The position numbers and the translations under genes were made by a program. Below the pieces are notes generated by a model. The model was not told the DNA's origin. It worked only from the letters and a program-made list of their open reading frames with translations, and searched no databases. A stretch of 33,395 nt of DNA from Acidobacteriota bacterium (lineage in GTDB: Bacteria > Acidobacteriota > UBA6911 > RPQK01 > JAJDTT01), in the NCBI GenBank assembly GCA_022827025.1, contig JAJDTT010000317.1, positions 1-33,395 of the forward strand, written 5' to 3'. Shown here piece after piece: positions 9,297 through 28,429 of the stretch. Positions within the stretch are counted from its first letter, which is position 1; each line of letters starts with the position of its first letter.

Positions 9297-10769
9297 TCAG
9301 CGGTTCACACTCCGTCCCCGGGCCGCATCCGAAATCTCCCGGCGGCCCCCGCGCTTTCCGCGTGTCGCGCCGACCCTGATCCCGTAGGCCTTGAGTTTCC
9401 GGTGCAGGTGGGAACGCTCCATCCCGATCTCGGCGGCGGTTCTGGAAATGTTGCCGCCGTATTGCCGCAGCTTTCGGGTCAGGAAATCGGACTCGAACGC
9501 CGCGCGGGCTTCCTGCCAGCTCCGGGATTCCGGCCGGGAGGCGCCGGACCCGTCCAGGATGGACCGCGGTAGGTCCGAAAGCTCCACCCGGCCGCCGGGA
9601 ACCATGATAATCCAACGCTCCACCATGTTGCGCAGTTCGCGGACGTTTCCCGGCCAGTGATACCGGAGGAGCCGGTCCCCCACCTCCCGGGGAATGATCT
9701 TGGCCGGTTTCCCATGATGGGGGCTGAGCATCTCCATGAAGTAGTCCAGAAGCTGGGGAATGTCCTCCTTGCGCTCCCGCAACGGCGGGACTTCGAAAGG
9801 GATGACGTTGAGCCGGAAATAGAGGTCCTCCCGGAACAGTCCGGTTTCGATCTGCTTCTCCAGATCCTTGTTGGTCGCCGCCAGGACACGCGTATCCACC
9901 TCGGTGGGCCGTTGGCTGCCCACCGGATAAAACCGTTGATCCTCCAGTACCCGCAGGACCCGGGCCTGGGTCTTGAGGCTCATGTCCGCCACTTCGTCCA
10001 GAAAGAGAGTGCCGCCGTCGGCCAGCTCGAAGCGCCCCTTCCGGTTCTCGGTCGACCCGGTGAACCCTCCCTTGACGCTGCCGAACAGCTCGCTCTCGAT
10101 CAGGTCGTCCGGAATGGCCGCGCAATTGACTTCGACGAAGGGCCCCTCGCGGCGGGCGCTGTTGAGGTGGAGCAACCGGGCCACCAGTTCTTTGCCGGTG
10201 CCGTTCTCGCCGTATATGACCACCCTTCCTTCCGTGGGGGCCGCGAAGTCGATCTGTTGGCGGAGCGCCTGCATCGGCACCGAAGCGCCGATCATGACCG
10301 TCTCCTGCCGGACGAGGTCCTTCAGGCTCCGGTTTTCCGTTTCCAGGCGCTTCTGCTTGAGCGCATGGCTCAGCACCAGCAGAACCTTGTCCCGGGCCAG
10401 CGGTTTCTCGATGAAGTCGTAGGCTCCCAGCTTGGTGGCCTGGACCGCCGTCTCGATGGTGCCGTGGCCGGAGATCATGATGACGTACTGGCGGGGGCGC
10501 CGGGCCCGAATCCGCGTGAGGGCATCGATCCCGTCCATGCCGGGCAACCAGATGTCGAGGAAGATGGCGTCGTAAGTGGTCCGGTCCACGAGGCGCAACC
10601 CTTCCTCGGCGCTGGCCGCCGTTTCCACCAGGTAGCCCTCGTCTCTCAGGACTCCGGCCAACGAACGGAGCACGCTCCGGTGGTCGTCTACGATCAACAG
10701 CCGGATTCCGGGATGGCGTCCGGTCCTGAGCGGATCGTGCCCCGGGGTCTTGCCGGCCTTGTGGATCAT
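9297..10769 (-). CDS. NtrX-like response regulator with AAA+ domain and altered GAFTGA loop
   Basis: The 490-residue protein has a receiver domain (residues 22-140, phospho-acceptor D72 in AIFLDIWLPGMDG, acidic pair at 28-29, conserved K in IEKPL). A sigma-54-activator AAA+ domain follows with Walker A GENGTGKE, Walker B GGTLFLDEVAD and the R-finger region LFREDLYFRLNV. A C-terminal Fis-type helix-turn-helix (NISRTAAEIGMERSHLHRKL) and a basic tail end the protein. The loop that normally reads GAFTGA and contacts sigma-54 is GGFTGS here. The ATG overlaps the stop of the upstream NtrY-like kinase (ATGA), so the two form a cognate pair. The 20-residue lead before the receiver may be extra. Whether it activates sigma-54 promoters is doubtful given the altered loop, and it may work as a DNA-binding repressor or activator for other holoenzymes. 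Confidence 0.9.
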   Translation of the reverse strand: MIHKAGKTPGHDPLRTGRHPGIRLLIVDDHRSVLRSLAGVLRDEGYLVETAASAEEGLRLVDRTTYDAIFLDIWLPGMDGIDALTRIRARRPRQYVIMISGHGTIETAVQATKLGAYDFIEKPLARDKVLLVLSHALKQKRLETENRSLKDLVRQETVMIGASVPMQALRQQIDFAAPTEGRVVIYGENGTGKELVARLLHLNSARREGPFVEVNCAAIPDDLIESELFGSVKGGFTGSTENRKGRFELADGGTLFLDEVADMSLKTQARVLRVLEDQRFYPVGSQRPTEVDTRVLAATNKDLEKQIETGLFREDLYFRLNVIPFEVPPLRERKEDIPQLLDYFMEMLSPHHGKPAKIIPREVGDRLLRYHWPGNVRELRNMVERWIIMVPGGRVELSDLPRSILDGSGASRPESRSWQEARAAFESDFLTRKLRQYGGNISRTAAEIGMERSHLHRKLKAYGIRVGATRGKRGGRREISDAARGRSVNR

Positions 10770-12973
10770 GCGGACGGAAACTCCATGATGAAGCGGGTGC
10801 CGCGGGGCACGTTCCGTTCCGCCCGGATGAACCCGTCGTGCTCCGAGACGATCTGCCTCACGATGGCCAGTCCCAGGCCCGTGCCCCTCTTCTTGGTGGA
10901 GAAGTAGGGGAGGAAGAGATTCTCGTAGTCTTCCGGAGAGATCCCGGTTCCGTTGTCTTCGAATTCCACCACCACCGAACCGCGCTCCGGATCGTAACGG
11001 CTGCGAATTCCGATCCGGCGGCGGCCCTTGACCTCCACCAGGGCGTCGAGGGAGTTGTCGATCAGGTTGACGAAGACCCGCTGGATCTGGGCCGGGTCCC
11101 AGCGCACGGTCTTGACTCGGGGGTCGAAGCGGGTGCTCACTCCCACGCTCTTCAACGCTCCGTCGTAGCGGGCGAGGGTCTGTTCGACCAGTTTGGCCGG
11201 ATCGACCTCCACGGGATGGCAGATGGGAAGCCGGGCGAACCGGGAAAACTCCTCCACCAGGGTCTTGAGCGTGGCCGCCTCCGCGGTGATCAAGGCCGTC
11301 GCTTCCGTCAAGGTCTCGCCAAAGGCGAGGGTCTCGCGAGTTCCGGGGAGGGTCTGCTCGATCCTGTGGAAGCGGTTCCGGATGCGGTCGGCCGAGAGCT
11401 GGATCGGCGTCAGGGGGTTCTTGATCTCGTGAGCCAGTCGCCTGGCGACCTCCTGCCAGGCGGCGAATTTCTCTGCCCGGATCAGTTCCGTGAGGTCGTC
11501 CAGGACCACCAGGTGCTCGACGCCGTTCTTGAACGGCAGGTTGGTGGTGGTGGCGGTGACGGTGAGTGGCGGCTGCCCCTGGCCCCGCTTGAAGTTGACC
11601 CGGCGCCGATCCGTGCTGAACAGGCTCACGCGTTTTTTCATGTCCTGAAAATCGGCGTAGACATCCGGCTCCAGGACGCCGGTCAAGGGCTGGTTCAGGA
11701 TCTGCTCCGGCCCGGCGCCGAACATTTCCATGGCCGCCTGGTTGACGGTGCGAATCACATCGTTCCGATCGACGCTCACCACGCCGGTGGCGATGTTCTC
11801 GAGAATGGTCTCGATGTACTTCCGGCGTTCGTCCAGACGCTCGTTGGTCTCCCGCAGCTCGGCGTTGGCCTGCTCCAGCCGCCGCCGGCTATGGTGGATC
11901 TCGTCGGCCATCCGGTTGAAGGAGTCCACCAGGATGCCCAACTCGTCCACCGCCTCCTGCTCCACCCGGTGGTCCAGGTTCCCTTCGGCAAGTTCCCGCG
12001 CGCCCTGGGCCAGGGCCTCCAGCGGGACCGTGATTCTTCTGGCCATGTAGGTGCCCAGCCAGACGAAAACGACCACCACGACCAGGGTGGTGACCGCCAT
12101 GATCAGCAAGTAGTTGTTTTCGAACTGTTGCCGGCTGCTCATCAACTGGCGATGCTTCTCCGACGCAGTCTGCGCTTCCAGAGTGTGGAAGATGACGCTG
12201 TCGGGCAGGGCGAAGCCGGCCACCAGGCCCCCCAGCACCGATCCGTCGGAACCTCGCGCCGGAACCGCAGCCAATCCCCGGTCGACGTACCTGCGCCGGT
12301 TCAGGTCGGCCCGAGAGGAGACGGCATAGTACTCGCTGCCGTCCAGGACTTTGTCCAGCGCAAGGTCCCACGAAGAATCCTCCCAATCGCCTTGCCGGAA
12401 GCGGATCTTCCGGTCGCGATCCACCAGCATCAGGCCGTCGAACCCGAGCTCGGCAATGCCGCCGTGCAAAGCGGAGTCGAAGGTGAAGCGGGTCCAATCG
12501 ATCTGGCCGCTGAGGGTGCGCGCCGCAATCAGGCTCACCGTCTTCTTCTCTTCGTAATAGTTTGAGGCAATGATCTCGGACGCTTCCAGAAGGTCCTCGG
12601 AGGGGGAACTGAACCAGAGCTTGAGGTTCTCGTTGATGAGTCCGGTCGCTACGAAAAAGTAGATCAGAGCCGGAAAGAGGGAGATGATGGTCAGGGTCAG
12701 CACCAGCTTCCGCTTCAGGCGGGTGCCTTCCCGCCTGGATTGATGCTCGAAAAACAGCTTGATGAGATTCCGGGCGAAAATGAACAGGAGCGTCAGAGCC
12801 ACTATGAAATAGATGGCCCAGACCGCGGACCAGAGAGTCAGATTCGAGACGAACCGCGGGTTGCCGACGGAAGTCGGGTTCAGAAAGAGAACGGCTACCA
12901 GGACCAGGAGTGCGGAGAAGGCGAGGAGCGCTCCCGTCCAGTAGATCCTCCGGAGTCGTTCGAGCCGCTTCAT
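10766..12973 (-). CDS. NtrY-like membrane sensor histidine kinase
   Basis: The 735-residue kinase begins with three hydrophobic helices (about residues 11-33, 45-67 and 87-108). A periplasmic segment of roughly 170 residues follows, then a fourth helix (LLIMAVTTLVVVVVFVWL) that leads into a HAMP domain (ARRITVPLEALAQGARELAEGN). A coiled linker and a PAS domain precede the kinase core. The H-box is RLAHEIKNPLTPIQLSADRI with H515. The ATPase part shows LIDNSLDAL, FEDNGTGI and GTGLGLAIVRQIV. This architecture is that of NtrY. The ATG at 12973 (MKRLERLRRIYW) is chosen because the membrane topology starts there. The frame stays open far upstream, but that portion has no plausible protein character. 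Its start faces hyuA across a divergent intergenic region. The signal is unknown. Confidence 0.92.
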   Translation of the reverse strand: MKRLERLRRIYWTGALLAFSALLVLVAVLFLNPTSVGNPRFVSNLTLWSAVWAIYFIVALTLLFIFARNLIKLFFEHQSRREGTRLKRKLVLTLTIISLFPALIYFFVATGLINENLKLWFSSPSEDLLEASEIIASNYYEEKKTVSLIAARTLSGQIDWTRFTFDSALHGGIAELGFDGLMLVDRDRKIRFRQGDWEDSSWDLALDKVLDGSEYYAVSSRADLNRRRYVDRGLAAVPARGSDGSVLGGLVAGFALPDSVIFHTLEAQTASEKHRQLMSSRQQFENNYLLIMAVTTLVVVVVFVWLGTYMARRITVPLEALAQGARELAEGNLDHRVEQEAVDELGILVDSFNRMADEIHHSRRRLEQANAELRETNERLDERRKYIETILENIATGVVSVDRNDVIRTVNQAAMEMFGAGPEQILNQPLTGVLEPDVYADFQDMKKRVSLFSTDRRRVNFKRGQGQPPLTVTATTTNLPFKNGVEHLVVLDDLTELIRAEKFAAWQEVARRLAHEIKNPLTPIQLSADRIRNRFHRIEQTLPGTRETLAFGETLTEATALITAEAATLKTLVEEFSRFARLPICHPVEVDPAKLVEQTLARYDGALKSVGVSTRFDPRVKTVRWDPAQIQRVFVNLIDNSLDALVEVKGRRRIGIRSRYDPERGSVVVEFEDNGTGISPEDYENLFLPYFSTKKRGTGLGLAIVRQIVSEHDGFIRAERNVPRGTRFIMEFPSA

Positions 12974-13083
12974 GATGCCGGCTAACAGTCCGTGGCGAAA
13001 GTCCCACGCAGCACCGAAACCGGGGCTGCGCCCGCCGGACAAGGCGCCCTGAGGGAGCAGATCGGGAAATATGTGACCGAGGA

Positions 13084-13150
13084 GCAACGCAGTCCGCCGG
13101 GATGCAGACCCGGTCGAATGCCGTGACGACCTTTGCCACGGGCTGTCAAG
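13084..13150 (+). repeat. Dispersed intergenic repeat, copy A
   Basis: It aligns without gaps to 31492-31558, same strand, with 53 of 67 bases identical, including an exact 14-base core (13115-13128, CGAATGCCGTGACG). Both copies lie in intergenic DNA upstream of a plus-strand gene. The right edge, read on the minus strand, is TTGACAGCCCGTGGCAAAG. That matches 16 of 19 bases of the left edge of the region around copy B (31463-31481), which hints at terminal inverted repeats. Confidence 0.7.
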
Positions 13151-13175
13151 GATCGGAAAGCGCCCCGGGGAACGC

Positions 13176-13205
13176 TTGTCAGGTTTCCCGAATCTTCGGT
13201 ATTGT
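13176..13205 (+). promoter_or_regulatory. Candidate promoter for hyuA
   Basis: TTGTCA (13176-13181) and TATTGT (13200-13205) are separated by 18 bp and would start transcription near 13212, about 100 nt before the hyuA ATG. It sits just downstream of repeat copy A. Confidence 0.35.
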
Positions 13206-13312
13206 AGCATCTTCTCAGGCCTGAACCGGTCGTCGGGGATGGGGTGAGCGCCGGGCCGCGGGGCCAGATTCGGATTGGCCGGATTGAAGGGACAAACTCG
13301 GGACAGCGTGTG

Positions 13313-15328
13313 ATGAAGGGTCTCCCTGATCCCGAGTCTCTGCTGCGGGTCGGGGTCGACACCGGCGGCACCTTCACCGATTTCGTGGTCTGCCGCGAGG
13401 GCCGGATCGAATCCCTCAAGCTGCCCTCGACGCCGGCGACACCGGAAAAGGCGGTCCTGGAGGGGTTGGCCCGCATTCTCGGGGACGCCCCCGCTCTGGT
13501 GCAACACGGCTTCACCGTCGGCACCAACGCCTTGCTGGAGCGCAAGGGGGCCAAGATCCTCCTGGTGACGACCGAGGGTTTCCAGGACGTTCTGGCGATC
13601 GGCCGCCAGAACCGGCCGCATCTGTACGATCTGACCGCCGGCCGGGTCGCGCCGCTGGTTCCCCGCACCCGTCGCGTCGGAATCCAGGAGCGGACGCTTC
13701 ACGACGGGACGCGGCTGGAGCCGCTGCAGCGGGAGACTCTGGATCGGCTCCTGGAAAGGGTGCGGCGCCAGTCGCCCCAGGCCGTCGCGGTCGTCCTGCT
13801 GCACAGCTACGTCAATTCACGTCACGAGGATCTTGTCGGCAGAGCGCTGCGGGACACGGGAATACCGGTCAGCCTCTCCAGCCGCATCCTGCCCGAGTTC
13901 CGCGAATACGAGCGAACCTCGGCGACGGTCATCAACGCCTACCTGACGCCGGTGGTCGACCGTTATCTGGACGCCTTGAGCTCGAGCCCGTTGCTGGAGG
14001 GGGGCCGTCTCTCGGTCATGCAGTCCAACGGGGGGACGGCGCCCCTGGCCTCCACTTCCGTCGATCCGGTGAGAACTCTCTTTTCGGGACCGGCCGGAGG
14101 AGTCGTGGGAGCCTTCAAGTTGGCCCGGCAGGCCGGCTACGACCGGATCATCACTCTGGACATGGGAGGCACGTCCACCGATGTCTGCCTCTGCGACCAG
14201 CGGATTCCCAGCACGGGAGAGGCCGAGGTGGACCGCTTTCCCCTGCCCGTCCAGACGATTCCCATTCGTTCCGTCGGCGCGGGAGGTGGCTCCATTGCGT
14301 GGGTCGATTCGGGGGGGCTGCTGCGGGTGGGTCCCAAGAGCGCAGGGTCCAGTCCGGGTCCCGTCTGCTATGGGAGGGGGCGGAGCATCACCGTGACCGA
14401 CGCCAACCTCTTCTTGGGCAGAATCGACGCCGAACGCTTTCTGGGCGGAGAGATGAAACTCGATGCGGACCGGTTGCCCAGGTACCTGAAGCAGCTTTCA
14501 AGCCGGCTCCAGGAGCGTTCCTGGTCACCCGAGGAACTTTCCGAGGGGATCATCAAGATCGCGAACACCCAGATGGAAACGGCCTTGCGGGTGATCTCCC
14601 TGGAAAAAGGCTACGACACGCGGGACTTCACACTGGTGAGCTATGGCGGCGCCGGCGGGCTCCATGCCTGCGAGCTGGCTCGATCTCTGATGATTCCGCG
14701 GGTCATGGTCCCTCCCAGCCCGGGTCTGGTCTCCGCTTGGGGAATGATGGGCTCGCAGGTCGTCCGGGATCTCTCCCGCACCGTCCGTCTCGCCTTCAGC
14801 AATGCCAACGTGTCGCGCCGCCTCCGGAAGAAGATGGCGCCCCTGGTGGATCGGGCGCGCCGCCAGTTGGCCCGGGACGGGTTTGCGGAGGAGCGGATCC
14901 AGGTCCAGCGGAGCGTGGATCTCAGGTACCTGGGACAGGGTTACGAAATCAACGTCCCCTACTCGCGCAACCTGTTGCGAACGTTTCACAAGAAGCACGA
15001 GAGGCTCTACGGATACTCCAATCCCGGTCTCACCGTGGAAGTGGTGACACTGCGGGTTCGGGCCTTCGGCAACCATCCCGAGCTGCCGCTTCCGGAAGCC
15101 GCCGCCATCCCGAAGAAGCCGCCCCGGGCCTTTGCCGAAGAGAAGAGAAAGGTTTTCTTCCGGAGGGGGCGCCGCATGACCCGCTTCTACGATCGCGACC
15201 GGCTACGGCCCGGAACCCGGCTCAAGGCGCCCGCCGTGATCAGCGAATACAGCGCCACCACCTTGATTCCTCCCGGATTCAAGGGTCGTGTGGATCGATG
15301 GCGGAACCTGATTCTGGAGCCCGGATAG
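13313..15328 (+). CDS. Hydantoinase/oxoprolinase family protein, HyuA-type subunit
   Basis: Members use ATP to open five-membered cyclic amides such as hydantoins or 5-oxoproline, or carboxylate ketones in the acetone-carboxylase branch (family knowledge). The 671-residue protein has the actin-like N-terminal signature RVGVDTGGTFTDFVV (about residues 12-26), then HGFTVGTNALLERKGAK. The second ATPase lobe has ITLDMGGTSTDVCLC and a Gly-rich VGAGGGSIAWVDSGG, and the C-terminal part has FTLVSYGGAGGLHACELA. The start at 13313 (MKGLPDPESLL) places the signature at the usual distance from the N-terminus. A GTG directly before it and another at 13244 are alternatives. HyuB, the usual partner subunit, is not adjacent, so the substrate cannot be guessed from context. 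Its 3' end overlaps the convergent rlmB gene by 50 bp. Confidence 0.88.
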   Translation: MKGLPDPESLLRVGVDTGGTFTDFVVCREGRIESLKLPSTPATPEKAVLEGLARILGDAPALVQHGFTVGTNALLERKGAKILLVTTEGFQDVLAIGRQNRPHLYDLTAGRVAPLVPRTRRVGIQERTLHDGTRLEPLQRETLDRLLERVRRQSPQAVAVVLLHSYVNSRHEDLVGRALRDTGIPVSLSSRILPEFREYERTSATVINAYLTPVVDRYLDALSSSPLLEGGRLSVMQSNGGTAPLASTSVDPVRTLFSGPAGGVVGAFKLARQAGYDRIITLDMGGTSTDVCLCDQRIPSTGEAEVDRFPLPVQTIPIRSVGAGGGSIAWVDSGGLLRVGPKSAGSSPGPVCYGRGRSITVTDANLFLGRIDAERFLGGEMKLDADRLPRYLKQLSSRLQERSWSPEELSEGIIKIANTQMETALRVISLEKGYDTRDFTLVSYGGAGGLHACELARSLMIPRVMVPPSPGLVSAWGMMGSQVVRDLSRTVRLAFSNANVSRRLRKKMAPLVDRARRQLARDGFAEERIQVQRSVDLRYLGQGYEINVPYSRNLLRTFHKKHERLYGYSNPGLTVEVVTLRVRAFGNHPELPLPEAAAIPKKPPRAFAEEKRKVFFRRGRRMTRFYDRDRLRPGTRLKAPAVISEYSATTLIPPGFKGRVDRWRNLILEPG

Positions 15329-18221: not shown

Positions 18222-18310
18222 TTTCCCACCGCTGTCCCTGCTATTCCGGAAGCGGAACTCCCGGCAACGCTCGGATCCGGGCCCCAGGTCGACAATCCAA
18301 TTTTTTGGAC

Positions 18311-18320
18311 CTCGTACGAG
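18311..18320. promoter_or_regulatory. Palindrome CTCGTACGAG, candidate activator site
   Basis: This perfect 10-bp palindrome is centred about 127 bp upstream of the predicted sigma-54 start (near 18443), a distance usual for enhancer sites. It may bind the Fis-type helix-turn-helix of the adjacent regulator. That is inference. Confidence 0.35.
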
Positions 18321-18388
18321 AGATTGGATCGGAATCCGTGTCAACGGCGCACCGGCTTCCCCGCGGGGCCGAGAATCTCTCTTCTACC

Positions 18389-18402
18389 CACGACATTTCG
18401 TG
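18389..18402. promoter_or_regulatory. Inverted repeat CACGA-N4-TCGTG near the sigma-54 promoter
   Basis: This perfect 5-bp inverted repeat has a 4-bp spacer (CATT) and is centred about 48 bp before the predicted start. It shares TCGT/ACGA tetramers with the palindrome at 18311-18320. It may be a second regulator site. Confidence 0.3.
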
Positions 18403-18416
18403 TGTGGATCGACAGG

Positions 18417-18431
18417 TGGCACCGATCTTGC
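18417..18431 (+). promoter_or_regulatory. Sigma-54 (-24/-12) promoter for the kinase-regulator operon
   Basis: TGGCAC, five bases (CGATC) and TTGC match the RpoN consensus, with invariant GG and GC elements exactly 10 bp apart. The predicted start is near 18443 and the leader is about 80 nt. The operon it precedes encodes a sigma-54 activator with an intact GAFTGA loop, so autoregulation is a natural reading. Confidence 0.75.
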
Positions 18432-18522: not shown

Positions 18523-21390
18523 ATGCTTCGTGGCTTCCAAATGAAAGCTGTCCTGGCCGTCCTGGCCTCCGCCGTCGCCATCTATGCCGGCGTCCTGAAT
18601 CTTCTGGACCGGTCGGCTTGGGGCGAGGTTTCTGACGGGATCGTCTGGACCGAAGGCAGCAGCGGGGACGTCCTCGCCCACCGCATCGGCGATCCGGAGG
18701 CCGGTGGCCCGCGCGCCGGAATCGAGCCGGGAGACCGGCTGGTGGAACTGGGGGGCATCGAGATCCGGTCTCTCGACGACTACGTCGAGGTGATGGAAGT
18801 CTTGGCCGGGTCCGGTTCCCTCGGCATGCCGGCGACTTATCTGATCCAGAAGACACCGGGAGGCGATCGGCGCCAACACCAGGTGCGGCTGGAAGTCCAG
18901 TCGGGACTCGACCGAACCGACGGCCTTCTGGTGCTGGTCGCCCTGCTCCACCTGGCCATCGGACTGTTGGTTTTTCTGCGCAAGCACGAGTCGGCGGGCG
19001 CGCTCCACTTTTTTCTGCTGTGCCTGGTCTCGTTCTGCCTCTACCTGTACCGGTACTCGGGCCGGGGCGATTCCTTCGATCTCCTGATTTATTGGGTCGG
19101 GTCGGTGGCGCTGCTGGTCCTTCCTCCCTTGTTTCTCCACTTCTGCGCCACGTTTCCCGAGGCCCAGCGATGGCTGGACCCGCGTGGACGGCTGGGCGTT
19201 GCCTTCTATCTGCCGGCGGCCGTGCTGTTGGCGATTCATGTGGCCTGGTTCCTGGGATCCCTGCAGCCGCTGGGGTTGCCGCGAAGTCCGGGAGTCGCCC
19301 ACTTCTTCGACAAGATTCACCTGTCCCATCTGGGGGTCTTCTTCTGTCTCGGAGCGGGTCTGCTCATCCAATCCGGCCGGCAGGCGCGGACGCCGCTTCA
19401 CCGCAGGCAGATGATGTGGGTTTCCCATGGGACCCTCATCGCCCTGGCTCCGTTTTTGATTCTGTATGCCGGACCCTATTTCATGGGTTTTCCCATACAT
19501 CCCGTCATGGAGATGTCGATCCTGAGTCTGGCGCTCCTTCCCTTGTGTTTCGGATACGCCATCATCCGGTACCGGTTGATGGACGTCGAGTTGATCTTTC
19601 GCGAAAGTGCAGCCTACGTCCTGGCCAGTTGGGTCCTCCTGGTCTTTTACGTGGGGGTGGTCTTGATGGTCGGGGGGACGCTGTTCGGCCTCTCTCCCCA
19701 TTCCGATTTCTCGGTGTTCGCCGTTTCGGCCCTGGTGGCGGCTTTCCTGTTCGCGCCGGTGAAGGACAAGATTCAGCAGCGGTTGGATCGCTACTACTAT
19801 CCGGAGACCTACGACTACCGTCAGTCGTTTGCGGATTTCGGCAGGAGCCTGAACTCGGAATTCAGTCTGCCGCGATTGGCGGAGCGAGTTTGCGCCCGGA
19901 TCGAGCAGACTTTCACGGTCCGTCCCGTGGCCCTCTTTCTCCGCTCTCCTGAACGTCCCGGCAGGTTCTTCCTCTACCACGCCCTCGGTGTAAACGGCGG
20001 CGTGGACAAGGACAGTCCGATTCTGCTGCCGGCTCCGGCTTGGGGCGGCAACCACGGCCGGGCGGAGCGCGTGGCGCCGGATTTCGGCGGCGGGGATGAG
20101 GACACGGCGTACCGGACCCGGCTGGCGGCGTTGGGAATTCGGTATCTCCAGCCCCTTGAGACCCATGGCCGCGTCATCGGCCTGCTGGGGCTGGGTGATC
20201 GGGCCAACGGCGACGTCTTGAACAGCCAGGACATGGAGTTGCTGGCGGCGCTGGCCGGTTATGCGGCGACTGCCATGGACAACGCAGTGCTCTACCGTTC
20301 GTTGGAAACCAAGGCGGGCGAACTCCAAAGACTCAAGAGCTACAACGACAGCGTGATCCGGAGCATTACCGCGGGAGTCGTGGTGGTCGATGCGGACGGC
20401 GCCGTCCGAGTCTGGAACTCGTTCATGGAGTCGTTTTACGGCCTGGAGGCGAGCCATGCGGTCGGCCGGAGCATCGACGAGGTCTTTCCCCCGGATCTGC
20501 TCCACTCCGTGATGGAAGCGCTGGGCAACTCTCGCTGGCGGATTCCGGAGGTGACACGCGTGGACAAGACGCGTCTCAAGTCCTCCTCGGGCGAGGATCG
20601 CCTCGTGAATCTTCACCTCTCGCCCTTCGTGGCCCAGGATGACGTCCTCACCGGGACTCTCCTGCTCTTCGACGACGTCACGGAGAAGGCGCAGTTGGAG
20701 GACCAGCTGGTCCAGGCGGAGAAGCTCACGTCCATCGGCCTCCTGGCGGCGGGTGTGGCGCATGAAGTCAATACCCCTCTGGCCGGGATCTCGAGCTACA
20801 CGCAGTTGTTGTTGGATTCGACCCCTTCTTCCGACTCCCGGCGCGACCTGTTGGAAAAGATCGAAAAACAGAGCTTTCGAGCTTCACGGATCGTCAACAA
20901 CCTGGTCAACTTTGCCCGGGTCCGGGACGGCGAATTCCGTGATGTCAACCTCAATTCCCTGATGTTGGAGACGGTGTCCCTCCTGGAGCATCAACTCGGG
21001 AGCCATGGGGTGGAGGTCAGTCTCCATCTCGATCCCGCTCTGCCCCGCACCCGGGGCCATGAGGGCAAGCTGCAGCAGGTTTTCGTCAACTTGCTGATGA
21101 ACGCCAAGGACGCCATGCCGGACGGAGGGAGCATCGCGATCCGCACCTCCCACCGGAACTCCGGGCTCGTGGTGGAGGTGGAAGACAGTGGAAAGGGCAT
21201 TCCCGGCGACGTTCTGCACCGGATCTACGATCCCTTCTTCACCACCAAGGACGTGGGGAAGGGGACCGGCCTGGGACTCTCGGTCTGTTACGGAATCGTG
21301 CAGGAGCATGAGGGCCGAATTCAGGCGAGAAGCCGGGTGGGCGAGGGAAGCACGTTCGCAGTCCATCTGCCCGTGAAAAGGGTTCAATGA
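18523..21390 (+). CDS. Multi-pass sensor histidine kinase with periplasmic PDZ, GAF and PAS domains
   Basis: The order in this 955-residue protein is as follows. TM1 spans about 8-26, preceded by a basic N-terminus. A PDZ-like domain spans about 35-128 (RAGIEPGDRLVELGGIEIRS). About eight further hydrophobic helices lie between 134 and 413. A GAF-like domain spans about 450-600 and a PAS domain about 625-735. The HisKA domain has H747 in AAGVAHEVNTPLAGISSY, and the ATPase domain has NLLMNAKDAMPDGG, VEDSGKGI and GTGLGLSVCYGIV. Positive-inside logic puts the PDZ domain in the periplasm. The ATG has a strong ribosome site (GAGGGGAG). Its stop overlaps the start of the regulator (ATGA), making a cognate pair. 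PDZ domains bind protein C-termini, so a peptide or misfolded envelope protein is a plausible ligand. That is inference from domain knowledge, including DegS. Confidence 0.9.
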   Translation: MLRGFQMKAVLAVLASAVAIYAGVLNLLDRSAWGEVSDGIVWTEGSSGDVLAHRIGDPEAGGPRAGIEPGDRLVELGGIEIRSLDDYVEVMEVLAGSGSLGMPATYLIQKTPGGDRRQHQVRLEVQSGLDRTDGLLVLVALLHLAIGLLVFLRKHESAGALHFFLLCLVSFCLYLYRYSGRGDSFDLLIYWVGSVALLVLPPLFLHFCATFPEAQRWLDPRGRLGVAFYLPAAVLLAIHVAWFLGSLQPLGLPRSPGVAHFFDKIHLSHLGVFFCLGAGLLIQSGRQARTPLHRRQMMWVSHGTLIALAPFLILYAGPYFMGFPIHPVMEMSILSLALLPLCFGYAIIRYRLMDVELIFRESAAYVLASWVLLVFYVGVVLMVGGTLFGLSPHSDFSVFAVSALVAAFLFAPVKDKIQQRLDRYYYPETYDYRQSFADFGRSLNSEFSLPRLAERVCARIEQTFTVRPVALFLRSPERPGRFFLYHALGVNGGVDKDSPILLPAPAWGGNHGRAERVAPDFGGGDEDTAYRTRLAALGIRYLQPLETHGRVIGLLGLGDRANGDVLNSQDMELLAALAGYAATAMDNAVLYRSLETKAGELQRLKSYNDSVIRSITAGVVVVDADGAVRVWNSFMESFYGLEASHAVGRSIDEVFPPDLLHSVMEALGNSRWRIPEVTRVDKTRLKSSSGEDRLVNLHLSPFVAQDDVLTGTLLLFDDVTEKAQLEDQLVQAEKLTSIGLLAAGVAHEVNTPLAGISSYTQLLLDSTPSSDSRRDLLEKIEKQSFRASRIVNNLVNFARVRDGEFRDVNLNSLMLETVSLLEHQLGSHGVEVSLHLDPALPRTRGHEGKLQQVFVNLLMNAKDAMPDGGSIAIRTSHRNSGLVVEVEDSGKGIPGDVLHRIYDPFFTTKDVGKGTGLGLSVCYGIVQEHEGRIQARSRVGEGSTFAVHLPVKRVQ

Positions 21391-22775
21391 CATCCCGGTC
21401 CACGGTTCTGATCATCGACGACGAAGAGATCATGCGGGACGTCTTCTCGCGAGTCGTCGCCGACGGCGGCCACCAGGTTCTCCTCGCTGCCTCGGGGGAG
21501 GAGGGCCTCAAGCTGATAGGGCGCGAGCCGGTGGACCTGGTGCTCCTGGATCTCATGCTTCCCGGCATCGGCGGACTTGAGACGCTGGAGCAGATCCTCG
21601 AGCTGGATCCTGACCTGGCCGTCATCATGGTCACGGCCTATGCGTCCATTGAGAACGCGGTGCGGGCGACCCGGCTGGGAGCGTTCGACTTCGTGACCAA
21701 ACCGTTTCGCAACGAAGAGTTGCTCCTGGTCATCAAGAACGGCATCCGGCAACGGCGCCTCGAATTGGAGAATCGCCAACTCAAGTCCAGTCTTCATCGC
21801 CGTCAGGGTCACTTCCAGAACATCGTCGGGAAGAGCGAGCCGATCCGGCGGGTCACGGATCTCATTACCCAGGTGGGCCCGGGCCGCAGCACGGTTCTGA
21901 TCACGGGGGAGAGCGGCACCGGGAAAGAATTGGTCGCCAAGGCCGTTCACAATCTGAGTCCCCGGCGCGACCGGGCCTTCGTCCCGGTCAACAGCGGCTC
22001 GATTCCCTCCGAACTCCTGGAAAGTGAGCTCTTCGGGCATGTCAAGGGAGCCTTTACCGGGGCCACGGCCACCAAGAAGGGACTGTTCGAAATCGCTCAT
22101 GAGGGCACGATTTTCCTGGACGAGATCGATACCGTCCCGGTGCAGACCCAGGCCAAGCTGTTGCGGGTTCTCCAGGAGAGGGAATTCCGTCCCGTGGGCG
22201 GCGTGCGGAGCATCAAGGTCGACGTGAGAATCGTGGCCGCCACCAACGTGGACCTGAAGCGGGCGGTCCGGGAAGGCCGGTTCCGGGAGGACCTCTACTA
22301 CCGTCTCAAGGTCATCACCCTGGACGTGGCGCCGTTGCGCGACCGGAGGGATGACATCCCCCTGCTGTCCCACCATTTCCTGACCCGCTTCAGCCGCGAG
22401 AACGGGAAGACGTTGAATTCCATCGATCAGGACGCGCTCAGGGTCTTGATGAACTACGACTGGCCCGGAAACGTCCGGGAACTGGAGAACGCCATCGAAC
22501 GCGCGGTGGTTCTCTCCGGGACCAGTGGAAGTATCCGATCGGAGCTGCTTCCCCGGGAAATTCTGGATTCGACCTCGGGCCGGCCGGATGGCATCCCGGC
22601 CCAATCCCGGAACGGGTCCCTCAGGGAACTGGTACTCGAGTTTGAGCGCAATCTGATTCTGCTGGCGATGGAACGGGCCAATTGGAACCAGCGGAAGGCG
22701 GCCAGCCTGCTCAAGGTCAAACCGACCACCCTGAATGCCAAGCTGAAACGCCTGCAGGTCAGGATCCCGTCCTGA
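21387..22775 (+). CDS. NtrC-family sigma-54-dependent response regulator
   Basis: The 462-residue protein has a receiver domain with acidic residues in LIIDDEEIMRDVF, phospho-acceptor D55 in LVLLDLMLPGIGG and K in FVTKPF. The AAA+ domain (about 140-375) has Walker A GESGTGKE, an intact sigma-54 contact loop in GHVKGAFTGATATKKG, Walker B GTIFLDEIDT and the GNVRELENAIER sensor region. The C-terminal Fis-type helix-turn-helix is NWNQRKAASLLKVKPTTLNA. It is translationally coupled to the PDZ kinase through an ATGA overlap and probably activates the -24/-12 promoter upstream of that kinase. Unlike the NtrX-like protein at 9.3-10.8 kb, all signature residues for sigma-54 activation are present. Targets beyond this operon are unknown. 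The following ExbB operon has a sigma-70-like promoter. Confidence 0.94.
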   Translation: MTSRSTVLIIDDEEIMRDVFSRVVADGGHQVLLAASGEEGLKLIGREPVDLVLLDLMLPGIGGLETLEQILELDPDLAVIMVTAYASIENAVRATRLGAFDFVTKPFRNEELLLVIKNGIRQRRLELENRQLKSSLHRRQGHFQNIVGKSEPIRRVTDLITQVGPGRSTVLITGESGTGKELVAKAVHNLSPRRDRAFVPVNSGSIPSELLESELFGHVKGAFTGATATKKGLFEIAHEGTIFLDEIDTVPVQTQAKLLRVLQEREFRPVGGVRSIKVDVRIVAATNVDLKRAVREGRFREDLYYRLKVITLDVAPLRDRRDDIPLLSHHFLTRFSRENGKTLNSIDQDALRVLMNYDWPGNVRELENAIERAVVLSGTSGSIRSELLPREILDSTSGRPDGIPAQSRNGSLRELVLEFERNLILLAMERANWNQRKAASLLKVKPTTLNAKLKRLQVRIPS

Positions 22776-22985: not shown

Positions 22986-23666
22986 GTGGTAGTCGCAATC
23001 GGGGGAACCCTGTTGAGTTATTTCCAGCAGGGCGGTCCCATGATGTACGCCCTCCTTCTCTGTTCCATAGTCGCGTTGATATTCATCATCGAACGCATGA
23101 TCACGTACTACCGGGTTCAAGGAACCACGGCGGACATCTTTTCGTCGGTCCGCCAGGCATTGCTCGACGGGGATCTTCGCCACTCCCTGGAGGTGTGCGA
23201 GTCCTATACCCACCCCGTCGCCAGCACTCTGAAGTCGGGTCTGCTCAGGTACGGAAAGCCGCACTACGAGATCGAGAAGGCAATGGAGAGCGTGGCTCTT
23301 CACGAGGTTTCCAATCTGGAAAAGGGACTCTGGGTCCTGGGAACGGTGGCCAACATCGCCCCGTTGTTCGGATTCCTGGGAACCGTCACCGGCATGATCG
23401 CGTCGTTCGAGGCGTTGGCGGAGGTCGGCCTTGGAAACCCGCAGGCGGTGGCGGGAGGCATCGCCGAGGCCCTGGTGACCACGGCGACGGGACTCATCGT
23501 CGCCCTCCCGGTCCAGGCCGCGTACAACTACTTCAGCAACCGGGTCTCGATCCTGGGCCTGGACATGGAGACCAGTTCCTCCATGCTGCTGGAGACGTTC
23601 AACGAGTTGGAGGAGAGGCAGGGCGGAAGGGACCGGCTGACGGAAGCGGCCCCGAGTGATTCCTGA
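22986..23666 (+). CDS. exbB: ExbB/TolQ/MotA-family proton channel protein
   Basis: ExbB-type proteins form the pentameric inner-membrane stator that, with ExbD, converts the proton gradient into force on periplasmic partners. The 226-residue protein has the three-helix family plan. TM1 is near residues 18-38 (MYALLLCSIVALIFIIERM). A cytoplasmic loop follows, then two helices near 110-135 (LGTVANIAPLFGFLGTVTGM) and 155-180 (EALVTTATGLIVALPVQAAYN). The GLLGTV-like and TTATGL motifs are characteristic. It starts with GTG behind AGGAGG. The stop overlaps the start of the first exbD by one base (TGATG), so the complex subunits are coupled. It could equally be called TolQ, and the lack of tolA/tolB/pal nearby makes ExbB preferable. 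Confidence 0.92.
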   Translation: MVVAIGGTLLSYFQQGGPMMYALLLCSIVALIFIIERMITYYRVQGTTADIFSSVRQALLDGDLRHSLEVCESYTHPVASTLKSGLLRYGKPHYEIEKAMESVALHEVSNLEKGLWVLGTVANIAPLFGFLGTVTGMIASFEALAEVGLGNPQAVAGGIAEALVTTATGLIVALPVQAAYNYFSNRVSILGLDMETSSSMLLETFNELEERQGGRDRLTEAAPSDS

Positions 23667-24100
23667 TGAAGCTGAGACGGGAAAAGTCAGCAGCGCTGGT
23701 TCCCAGGATCCCCACCGCATCCATGGCGGATATCGCCTTTCTGCTCATCATTTTCTTCATGTTGACGACGTCCTTTTCTCCGGAACGGACCTCGGTGAGC
23801 CTGCCCGAGTCGGAGATTCGGACCGAAGTGTCCAAGGACGCGGCCATCGTTGCCATCTCGTCTCAGGGCGAGATCAGCTTCACTGACGGGGATCAACCGG
23901 CGTTCCCCCTGGTGAACATCGCCGAACTGGGTCAGTATGTGAAGACGCTGGTGGCCGCCATCCCCCGGAAGGAGTTCCTGATCAAGGCGGACCGGGATGT
24001 CCGGTACGAATTGGTGGACGGCGTCCTGGAGCAGTTGCGGACCAACGGCGCGCGCCGGATCGGCCTCCTCACGGAGCGAAAACCAAAGGAGTCGGGTTGA
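23666..24100 (+). CDS. exbD: ExbD/TolR-family protein, first paralogue
   Basis: The 144-residue protein has a short cytoplasmic N-terminus and a single membrane helix (SMADIAFLLIIFFMLTTSF, about residues 19-37). The helix holds the Asp (D21) that carries protons in the family. A periplasmic domain of about 100 residues ends LRTNGARRIGLLTER, as is usual for ExbD. It is coupled to exbB upstream by a one-base overlap and to the second exbD downstream without any spacer. Outside the membrane helix its periplasmic domain differs strongly from its neighbour, so the two probably form different or mixed dimers. Confidence 0.93.
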   Translation: MKLRREKSAALVPRIPTASMADIAFLLIIFFMLTTSFSPERTSVSLPESEIRTEVSKDAAIVAISSQGEISFTDGDQPAFPLVNIAELGQYVKTLVAAIPRKEFLIKADRDVRYELVDGVLEQLRTNGARRIGLLTERKPKESG

Positions 24101-24538
24101 ATGAAGTTCCGAAGCCGTCTCCAGCGGGCTCCCGAGGTCCCCACCTCCTCCATGGCCGACATCGCCTTTCTGTTGATCATCTTCTTCATGTTGACGGCGG
24201 TCTTCACGTCGAACCGGGGGCTTCAGTTCGCTTTCCCCAAGGAGGATCCGACCCGGTTGGACGTCCAGCCCGAGGAAGCCGTCCACATCAAGATCACGGG
24301 TGAACAGCAGTACCTGGTGGACAAGACGCCCATGTCCCTGGGTTCGCTGGCCGGCTACGTGGAAGCGAAGATGGGGCAGAATCCCAACAAACCGGTGATC
24401 ATTCAGACGCAGGGACATGTCCCCTACCGGGTCATGATCGAAGTTTTCGACGTCTTGAGACAGCTTGAGGTCAAGAACATCTCGGTGCCTACGGAGTCGG
24501 AAGTCGAGCGCTGGAAGACGTTCGGTGTTTTCGAGTGA
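24101..24538 (+). CDS. exbD: ExbD/TolR-family protein, second paralogue
   Basis: The 145-residue protein shares with the first paralogue the membrane segment SMADIAFLLIIFFMLTAVF, including the proton-carrying Asp. It then has a divergent periplasmic domain (EEAVHIKITGEQQYLVDK, VPYRVMIEVFDVLRQLEVKN). The ATG follows the stop of the first exbD directly. The shared DNA in the helix region suggests duplication followed by divergence of the periplasmic part. Tandem ExbD genes after one ExbB are known in several phyla. No TonB-like protein is present in the window. Confidence 0.93.
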   Translation: MKFRSRLQRAPEVPTSSMADIAFLLIIFFMLTAVFTSNRGLQFAFPKEDPTRLDVQPEEAVHIKITGEQQYLVDKTPMSLGSLAGYVEAKMGQNPNKPVIIQTQGHVPYRVMIEVFDVLRQLEVKNISVPTESEVERWKTFGVFE

Positions 24539-24557
24539 TGCCGTTGAAGGGGTGACC

Positions 24558-25520
24558 ATGCCGCGCGGACTCCTATTGCTGGCGCTGCTGCTCGGTACGC
24601 CTCCGGTCAGTGGTCAAGGGGACTTCGGGAAGGGGATCTCCTTCTACAAGCAGGGGCAGTACGACAAGGCCATAGCGGAATTCGAGGCCATCGTCGAGGA
24701 GCATTCCGACTATGAGAGCGGCCACCGGATTCTCGGGATCTCCTACCTGAAGACCGATCGGGCGGAAAAGGCCATCGAGTCCTTCAAGAAGGCGCTGGAA
24801 CTCAAGGACGACGTCTATGCCTCGCATCAGGGCCTGGGTATCGCCTACTACAACACGGGCAATTTTCAGGAAGCCGCGGCGGCGCTCGAAACCGCGGAGG
24901 CGTACGCCAAGTCGCCCGCGGACCGCTATCAACTGCACCACACGCGAGGAAGCGCCTACTTCAATCTGGCCGAGTACGACCGGGCCATCTCGGACCTGGA
25001 GCGGGCCGTCTCCATCCGCAGGGGACAGTTCGACGACGTGCTCCAACTCGGATTGGCCCATTACAGGAAGAAGAGCTACGCGCTGGCCGAAGGATTCCTG
25101 AAACAGGCCGCCGGTCTGAATCCGAATTCCGCCGAAGCCCGGAACCACCTCTCCCGCATCGTCTACTACCGGGGCGTTGCGTCCCTCGAACAGGGGAACT
25201 ATCCGGACGCGATCACGACCTTGGGTGAATACCTGAAGGAACAACCGGAAGACGGGGATGCCTGGTTCAACCTGGGGATCGCTCATCTCTTCTCCGAACA
25301 CCTTCTGGCGGCGCAGGAAGCCTTCTTGAAGAGCAAGGAAATCGCCCCGGAGCACTGGGAGACGTACAACCGGCTCGGCTACATCTACGAAATGAATGAC
25401 CAGTATCCGGAGGCTCTGGACCACTACAGGAAAGCTCACGGCCTGAGGCAGGATGGTGAGATCCAGGCGAGCGTCGAGCGGGTCGAGGAGCGGATTCGAA
25501 GGCAGAAGGAACGAAGATAG
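24558..25520 (+). CDS. Secreted tetratricopeptide-repeat protein of the ExbBD operon
   Basis: The 320-residue protein starts with a signal peptide (MPRGLLLLALLLGTPPVSG; cleavage before QGDF is likely). The rest is about eight tandem TPR units of 34 residues, for example ISFYKQGQYDKAIAEFEAIV, SYLKTDRAEKAIESFKKAL and AYFNLAEYDRAISDLERAV. The last full units are near 255-310. It is a periplasmic protein-binding scaffold by inference. The ATG at 24558 is preceded by GAAGGGG and lies 19 bp after the second exbD. The frame is open further upstream inside exbD, but the signal peptide fixes this start. It could act as the mechanical or adaptor partner of the ExbB-ExbD-ExbD complex in place of TonB. 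Confidence 0.88.
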   Translation: MPRGLLLLALLLGTPPVSGQGDFGKGISFYKQGQYDKAIAEFEAIVEEHSDYESGHRILGISYLKTDRAEKAIESFKKALELKDDVYASHQGLGIAYYNTGNFQEAAAALETAEAYAKSPADRYQLHHTRGSAYFNLAEYDRAISDLERAVSIRRGQFDDVLQLGLAHYRKKSYALAEGFLKQAAGLNPNSAEARNHLSRIVYYRGVASLEQGNYPDAITTLGEYLKEQPEDGDAWFNLGIAHLFSEHLLAAQEAFLKSKEIAPEHWETYNRLGYIYEMNDQYPEALDHYRKAHGLRQDGEIQASVERVEERIRRQKERR

Positions 25521-25541
25521 CGCCCCACGCGTTTCGTGTGA

Positions 25542-26831
<1,290 letters not shown>

Positions 26832-26893: not shown

Positions 26894-28429
26894 ATGTCGA
26901 CACCCCCCGTGGTCCTCCTGGCTGTCCTGGATGGTTGGGGATTGCGAGACGGCCGGGACGGGAACGCCATCGCCCAGGCCCGGATCCCCACCATGGAGAG
27001 CCTCTACTCGCGTTACGCCTGGACCCGCCTGGCGGCCAGCGGCGGACGGGTCGGCCTGCCCCGGGGCCAGATGGGCAACAGCGAGGTCGGCCATTTCAAC
27101 CTCGGGACCGGACGGGTCGTCCAGCAGGATCTGACCCGAATCGATCAAGCCATAGAAACCGGGCGGTTCGACGGCAACTCGAGCCTGCGGTCCGTCATGC
27201 AAACCGCTCGCCAGACGGCGCTTCACCTGGTCGGGCTGGTTTCCAACGGCGGTGTCCACAGCCACATCCGCCATCTGCTGGCGCTGCTTCGGCTGGCCAG
27301 GAACGAGCATGTCGAGAAGGTGTGGATTCACGCCATCCTGGACGGGAGGGACGCAAGTCCCACGGCCGGAGTGCAATACCTGGAGCAGTTGCAGGATGCG
27401 GCCAGGAGGCTGGGAACGGGAGGATTGGCTTCGGTCGGTGGGCGCTACTACGCCATGGATCGCGACAACCGTTGGGACCGGGTCGAGAAGGCCTATCGAT
27501 GCATGGTCGAGGGTCGAGGAGAACAGGGCTGGCGGAATCCGATTCAGGGTCTGGAGGAGTCCTATCGATCAGGAGTCCGCGATGAGTTCGTAAAACCGTT
27601 TCCGGTTGTGGATACCCACGGCCATCCGGTGGCGCCGATGGATTCCGGCCACGCGGCCATCTTCTTCAACTTCCGCGCCGACCGGGCTCGCCAACTCACG
27701 GACTCGCTCACGGAAGTCGATTTCCGGGCCTTTCCCCGGAACCGGGCGCCCATGACCCACTTTCTCACCATGACCCGGTATCGGCACGACTGGGCGTTGC
27801 CGGTGGCCTTCCCTCCCCTACCCGTTCGGAGCACGCTGGCCGAGATCCTGAGTGCCCATGGTGTGTCCAATCTGCGGCTGGCGGAGACGGAAAAGTACGC
27901 CCACGTCACCTACTTCTTCAACGGGGGAGTTGAGGCCCCTCCGGAAGGGGAGACCAGGGTGATGATTCCGTCTCCCAAGGTGGCGACCTACGATCTCCAG
28001 CCCTGGATGAGCGCCGCCGAGATCACGGATCGATTGCTCTGCGAGTTGGACCGCGGCGTCTTTCCGGCCATCGTGGTCAATTTCGCCAACGCCGACATGG
28101 TGGGACACACGGGGGACCTGGCGGCGACCGTCCAGGCGGTGGAAGCTGTCGATTCCTGCCTGGGCCGGATTTACCGAAAGATCCGAAAAACCGGAGGCGT
28201 CATCTTGGTCACCGCAGACCATGGCAATGCAGAGTTGATGGTGGACGCAAAAACAGGTCAGCCGCATACGGCGCACACGAGTCACCCGGTGCCGTTCATT
28301 CTGGTCGATCCTCAACACCGGTCCGCATTGAGGTCGGGGGGCGCTCTGGAGGACGTTGCGCCCACGCTGCTGAAGTATCTGGGCTTGCCGCAACCGAAGG
28401 AAATGACCGGAAGGTCCCTGGTCATTTAG
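26894..28429 (+). CDS. gpmI: 2,3-bisphosphoglycerate-independent phosphoglycerate mutase
   Basis: This is a two-metal phosphotransferase that interconverts 3- and 2-phosphoglycerate. The 511-residue protein has the metal-binding LLAVLDGWGLRD (D13) and the nucleophile S63 in GQMGNSEVGHFNLGTGR. Family motifs VSNGGVHSHIRHL, HAILDGRDASP and GGRYYAMDRDNRWDRV follow. The substrate-binding FFNFRADRARQLT comes next, with AETEKYAHVTYFFNGGVE and the metal motifs VNFANADMVGHTGDL and TADHGNAE. The C-terminus HTSHPVPFILV is typical. It forms a glycolytic pair with enolase and lies six bases before the first glycosyltransferase, so the sugar-transfer genes may be on the same transcript. No strong ribosome site is visible. 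Confidence 0.97.
   Translation: MSTPPVVLLAVLDGWGLRDGRDGNAIAQARIPTMESLYSRYAWTRLAASGGRVGLPRGQMGNSEVGHFNLGTGRVVQQDLTRIDQAIETGRFDGNSSLRSVMQTARQTALHLVGLVSNGGVHSHIRHLLALLRLARNEHVEKVWIHAILDGRDASPTAGVQYLEQLQDAARRLGTGGLASVGGRYYAMDRDNRWDRVEKAYRCMVEGRGEQGWRNPIQGLEESYRSGVRDEFVKPFPVVDTHGHPVAPMDSGHAAIFFNFRADRARQLTDSLTEVDFRAFPRNRAPMTHFLTMTRYRHDWALPVAFPPLPVRSTLAEILSAHGVSNLRLAETEKYAHVTYFFNGGVEAPPEGETRVMIPSPKVATYDLQPWMSAAEITDRLLCELDRGVFPAIVVNFANADMVGHTGDLAATVQAVEAVDSCLGRIYRKIRKTGGVILVTADHGNAELMVDAKTGQPHTAHTSHPVPFILVDPQHRSALRSGGALEDVAPTLLKYLGLPQPKEMTGRSLVI

Follow-up and report, generated by a model that had tools for sequence, protein, structure and literature searches.

The question raised by this locus is whether the string TGGCACCGATCTTGC (TGGCAC-N5-TTGC), which starts 106 bp 5' of the ATG of a sensor kinase gene at position 18523, is a real sigma-54 promoter, and if so, which activator and which genes belong to it. 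In the window, by which we mean the whole stretch of 33,395 nucleotides analysed here, a pattern scan finds it on the + strand as the sole exact match, with 0 mismatches and the correct GG/GC spacing, just as the sequence-only reading had described it ahead of the kinase gene; the predicted transcription start lies at about 18443. Counts of the bare motif do not set it apart. When up to 2 mismatches are allowed, the window holds 21 matches against 25.2 in shuffled sequence, so that the pattern is not commoner than chance, and the exact pattern occurs 5 times in the 5.33-Mb genome against 8 times for the reversed pattern. There is no enrichment, and the genome-wide count of bare -24/-12 elements was rejected as uninformative. 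Elsewhere in this metagenome-assembled Acidobacteriota genome, of which the window is contig C263, an exact TGGCAC-N5-TTGC is also present at L032 (G000:C141:12031-12045, minus strand), about 2 kb from another sigma-54 activator gene (C141:9350-9847).

The lack of enrichment in window or genome is what would be expected if the element were a chance string without promoter function and a housekeeping promoter drove the operon, but comparison with orthologs makes this exceedingly improbable. Kinase orthologs were taken from 60 related genomes and their upstream DNA was compared (phylogenetic footprinting). A sigma-54 element with at most 1 mismatch is found in 25 of the 27 orthologous upstream regions, whereas 0.25 would be expected from dinucleotide shuffles, and it occurs together with a conserved pair of enhancer sites. 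The element persists in nearly all orthologs whose upstream DNA could be read, including those with a protein identity as low as about 41%, while the neighbouring sequence diverges, and in the genus alignment it is invariant between variable flanks. It is because of this conservation, and not because of the motif by itself, that we accept TGGCACCGATCTTGC as a real promoter. The claim of a sigma-54 promoter presupposed an rpoN gene, and the genome does encode RpoN (PF04552, E = 6.5e-57), with the C-terminal RpoN box RRTVAKYR. GG and GC stand at their fixed spacing and the same genome has a sigma-54 gene, and the comparisons with orthologs strongly support sigma-54 control of this operon. The features of the locus are collected in Table 1.

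Table 1. Positions in the window of the promoter element, the candidate activator sites and the genes of the kinase neighbourhood.
Feature	Position	Strand	Basis and remarks
CarboxypepD_reg protein, 624 aa	16347..18221	+	Pfam; conserved neighbour 5' of kinase; last residue aromatic (F)
Distal candidate activator site TCCAATTTTTTGGA	18296..18309		Perfect TYCAA-N4-TTGRA; centre about -140; position conserved across class
Proximal candidate activator site TACGAGAGATTGGA	18315..18328		2 mismatches to consensus; centre about -121
Sigma-54 -24/-12 element TGGCACCGATCTTGC (TGGCAC-N5-TTGC)	18417..18431	+	Exact match, conserved in orthologs
Sensor histidine kinase, 955 aa	18523..21390	+	Pfam: PDZ, 7TM, GAF, PAS, HisKA, HATPase; N-terminal hydrophobic helix
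NtrC-type response regulator	21387..22775	+	Pfam: receiver, sigma-54 interaction AAA+, Fis-type HTH
ExbB/TolQ-type proton channel	22986..23666	+	Pfam; conserved neighbour in order relatives
ExbD/TolR, copy 1	23666..24100	+	Pfam; conserved neighbourhood
ExbD/TolR, copy 2	24101..24538	+	Pfam; conserved neighbourhood
TPR-repeat protein	24465..25520	+	Pfam; conserved neighbour; true start maybe 3' of ORF start

Inverted repeats of 14 bp, of the form TYCAA-N4-TTGRA, are also found in the orthologous upstream regions. In nearly every case two of them stand in tandem, their starts separated by 18-22 bp, at about 140 to 100 bp 5' of the promoter element. Of the 27 regions, 23 have the promoter together with the paired sites, an arrangement that 5400 shuffles never produced, and outside the class the whole arrangement or one clear site is seen in genomes G038, G053, G042, G057 and G051, and also in G052. 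These alignments show the DNA architecture to be conserved, and the candidate sites lie within the 80-200 bp 5' of the promoter at which NtrC-family activators have their tandem dimer sites. The imperfect proximal site of the window is identical in all 4 genus members, and other families have perfect or near-perfect sites at the same place. A simple consensus search found no IHF-like site between enhancer and promoter. One further perfect copy of the repeat, TTCAACGAGTTGGA at 23598-23611, lies inside exbB, where a 2-mismatch scan shows no sigma-54 element close enough to serve it, and is probably due to chance.

The sequence-only reading had placed the activator sites elsewhere, at the palindromes CTCGTACGAG (18311-18320, about -127) and CACGA-N4-TCGTG (18389-18402, about -48), within a system that would chiefly amplify itself. 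Both palindromes really exist in the window, yet the one at -48 is intact in only 1 of the 4 genus members, the window genome, and the one at -127 in 3 of the 4, since one of the three sister species carries a broken copy. Beyond the genus, neither is seen in the orthologous upstream regions, in contrast to the TYCAA-N4-TTGRA pair, which has persisted. The genus alignment rules both out as conserved sites, and CTCGTACGAG shares some positions with the left half of the proximal member of the conserved pair. As many further targets were also found with the corrected site, we consider it very improbable that the two palindromes are the activator sites of a mainly self-amplifying system.

The kinase itself has a phospho-acceptor box that can be read as AHEVNTPLAG and a PDZ_6 match just under the curated Pfam cut-off, and its topology, with a membrane-anchoring N-terminal helix followed by the PDZ and 7TM domains, suggests that the PDZ domain is periplasmic. 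The regulator gene overlaps the kinase stop codon. Its product combines a receiver, an AAA+ domain with GAFTGA at residue 221 and a Fis-type HTH, as is characteristic of NtrC-family activators, and its closest solved relatives are NtrC-family regulators, which bears out the earlier description of the partner as a GAFTGA-bearing activator. Among the neighbourhoods compared (n=9), the regulator follows the kinase in 9/9 and the CarboxypepD_reg protein precedes it in 8/9; the latter could possibly be an outer-membrane partner of the kinase. In L113, L114 and L116, relatives from the order, the series ExbB-ExbD-ExbD-TPR comes next. In the window the TPR gene and an enolase gene (24465-26831) come after ExbB/ExbD, followed by an iPGM gene (26894-28429), and in several families enolase is likewise encoded close to the kinase operon. 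About 5 kb 5' of this operon in the window, and divergent from it, the minus strand (9297-13804) encodes another sigma-54 two-component pair, an NtrY-like kinase (NtrY_N, HAMP, PAS) with an NtrX-like regulator.

The combination of site and promoter recurs well beyond this operon. The scan pattern, promoter plus one enhancer site, was applied to metagenome assemblies and, being strict, would miss drifted sites. In 38 genomes of the class it gave 25 matches against 0 for the reversed control, and in 396 genomes of the Acidobacteriota it gave 82 matches in 62 genomes, while the reversed control gave 3 and a palindrome scrambled without change of composition gave 4. A search for the tandem pair without the promoter term had a clean control and added 4 new places; at each, 134-165 bp 3' of the start of the pair, stands a sigma-54-like element with 1 or 2 mismatches. 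The regulon scan that the sequence-only reading had proposed, run here with the corrected site, did recover kinase promoters; self-amplification did not hold up as the whole story, since receptor genes were found too. The strict pattern is absent from 253 of the 313 kinase-bearing genomes, and several families keep the kinase while the strict site is absent, or mostly so as in f18, f29, f32 and f52, which implies either that the site has drifted or that the regulon is limited to certain lineages.

Beyond kinase promoters, all 11 readable targets in the class are CarboxypepD_reg/TonB-receptor-type outer-membrane genes. Seven of these came from the search with promoter and site (6 proteins tested with Pfam, the seventh being an ortholog of one of those six) and 4 from the tandem-pair search, the latter assigned on N-terminal sequence only; the count omits L110, whose downstream sequence is partly readable, and L111, which lies at a contig end. 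For the phylum a sample of 40 places was examined, and CarboxypepD_reg scored above the Pfam cut-off in 34 of the 39 readable targets. The other 5 comprise 3 kinase-type proteins (2 with 7TM/GAF/PAS, 1 with GAF only by Pfam) and 2 Alginate_exp porins. Among the 34, PF13620 is above the cut-off in all and PF25183 in most, while Plug or PF00593 is present in many, weakly in some, several of the sequences being partial. The order typical of Oar-like proteins, CarboxypepD_reg and then a plug and a large outer-membrane beta barrel, was found in the targets. Because the target class played no part in building the pattern, its association with receptor genes is an independent result, and these scans show the receptors to be the target class of the conserved arrangement. 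In family f27, at L236 (G190) and L240 (G055), enhancer and promoter stand ahead of an Alginate_exp porin gene and not a CarboxypepD_reg receptor gene.

In the window genome, which has about 40 CarboxypepD_reg-type receptor loci, upstream DNA was fetched for 30 and showed site plus promoter clearly at one locus and weakly at a second. At the clear target, C189:4243, the promoter is TGGCACCGGAGTTGC and the sites stand at -146 and -114. At the weaker candidate, L126 (G000:C212), the element TGGAACCTGCATTGC is accompanied by a single site, TCCAACAAGCTGAA, 144 bp upstream.

Which activator uses these sites is a separate matter, as the window genome encodes 6 full sigma-54 activators, five of them besides the adjacent regulator. 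One of these five could bind the sites, in which case promoter and enhancer would be real while the kinase operon would be a downstream target and not autoregulated. Two genomes with the pattern, G073 (L241) and G287, also show no kinase at E <= 1e-15, and in G073 the pattern lies ahead of a CarboxypepD_reg gene; either the kinase there is diverged or missing, or another activator acts on the site. The regulator is, however, a constant neighbour of the kinase, and the scans show pattern and kinase to occur together: the kinase is present in 60 of the 62 pattern-bearing genomes and in 253 of the 334 pattern-free ones (Fisher p = 2.5e-5, a value that ignores shared ancestry). Moreover, the recognition helix of the adjacent regulator is conserved in the class and is unlike those of the other alignable activators of the genome, whose readable HTHs carry different helices. 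In family f18 (L172 in G059 and L182 in G044) the recognition helix is altered to PLSTLNQKIKRLN and no TYCAA-N4-TTGRA is seen at the kinase promoters, so that regulator and site may have changed together, while some lineages with a near-common recognition helix are also without a visible site. We therefore regard control by another activator as unlikely, and infer from the pattern of conservation, which points to the adjacent regulator without amounting to proof, that this regulator binds the TYCAA-N4-TTGRA sites.

The reading that we prefer, and hold to be quite probable, is that an autoregulated PDZ-7TM-GAF-PAS kinase and its NtrC-type partner drive, through sigma-54, a regulon made up of Oar-like TonB-dependent receptors. 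Activators of the NtrC family, once phosphorylated, bind a pair of sites, oligomerise and use the GAFTGA loop on sigma-54 polymerase. By analogy, the kinase would phosphorylate the regulator encoded alongside it, and regulator dimers would bind the two TYCAA-N4-TTGRA repeats, about two helical turns apart and roughly 85-150 bp 5' of the -24/-12 promoter; the bound regulator would then oligomerise, and its GAFTGA loop would remodel and open the sigma-54 polymerase. The same enhancer and promoter would drive the CarboxypepD_reg/beta-barrel (Oar-like, TonB-dependent-receptor-type) outer-membrane genes, and because of this the circuit would couple a signal, presumably periplasmic or membrane-borne, to receptor production while raising its own level. 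Transcription from a sigma-54 promoter depends on an activator, so a regulator bound upstream of its own operon would imply positive feedback, and a self-activating two-component circuit is likely. Against this circuit count the 2 mismatches in the proximal site of the genus and the single clear receptor target among about 40 loci.

A more specific role for the PDZ domain can be imagined. In DegS, a PDZ-type domain senses unfolded barrel C-termini, and the C-terminal aromatic residues of the receptors, together with the ExbB/ExbD neighbours, make a link to the state of the receptors attractive as speculation. If so, the kinase PDZ would sense outer-membrane receptors, for example through unfolded barrel C-termini, with the CarboxypepD_reg neighbour and ExbB/ExbD in a sensing or energising complex, and this would be an ancestral circuit of the Acidobacteriota in which receptor synthesis responds to receptor state through sigma-54 and not through an ECF sigma factor. 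We think this extended version decidedly unlikely.

The preferred circuit resembles several known systems and differs from each. Like AtoS/AtoC, NtrBC and ZraSR, it has a kinase and an NtrC-type regulator (receiver, GAFTGA AAA+, Fis-type HTH) with paired enhancers 5' of a -24/-12 promoter; it differs from all three in its PDZ-7TM-GAF-PAS sensor, its TYCAA-N4-TTGRA site and its receptor-type outer-membrane targets. Identity with AtoSC was rejected, the scores lying far under the curated NCBIfam cut-offs (284 vs 646 for AtoS; 460 vs 714 for AtoC). PrsK/PrsR, of the PEP-CTERM/exosortase system, likewise pairs a GAF-type sensor kinase with a sigma-54 regulator, but the targets here are receptor-type genes and not PEP-CTERM genes, and the NCBIfam cut-offs were again not reached (113.8 vs 300; 418 vs 502.6). 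ECF sigma/anti-sigma systems of the FecIR type let an envelope signal set the expression of a TonB-dependent receptor, whereas in the present system this would fall to sigma-54 with a two-component NtrC-type activator. Oar of Myxococcus xanthus is a TonB-dependent transporter (PMC6434023), and our targets are likened to it by layout, CarboxypepD_reg with a large barrel, and not by orthology. Francke et al. (2011, PMC3162934) proposed in general terms that sigma-54 controls the exterior of the bacterial cell, and the present regulon fits this; a term search of the main text of that paper found mention of neither TonB nor Acidobacteria, so this regulon is apparently not described there.

In the open-access literature, outside which most subscription journals lie, searches that combined sigma-54 with Acidobacteria, Oar or TonB-dependent receptors returned nothing on the present regulon, no report of sigma-54 control of Oar-type genes in Acidobacteriota and no published regulator of their CarboxypepD_reg-type TonB receptors. 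The kind of machinery is familiar, but no description of its sensor architecture, of the TYCAA-N4-TTGRA site or of a sigma-54 receptor regulon spanning the phylum seems to exist in that literature. Acidobacteriota are difficult to grow in culture, and their CarboxypepD_reg-type TonB receptors are numerous, as the window genome alone illustrates. For these receptors our results offer a candidate master regulator, a DNA site, and a testable regulon and mechanism, conserved in many families of the phylum. The recurrence of site and promoter across the Acidobacteriota points to a phylum-wide circuit that may control the cell surface.
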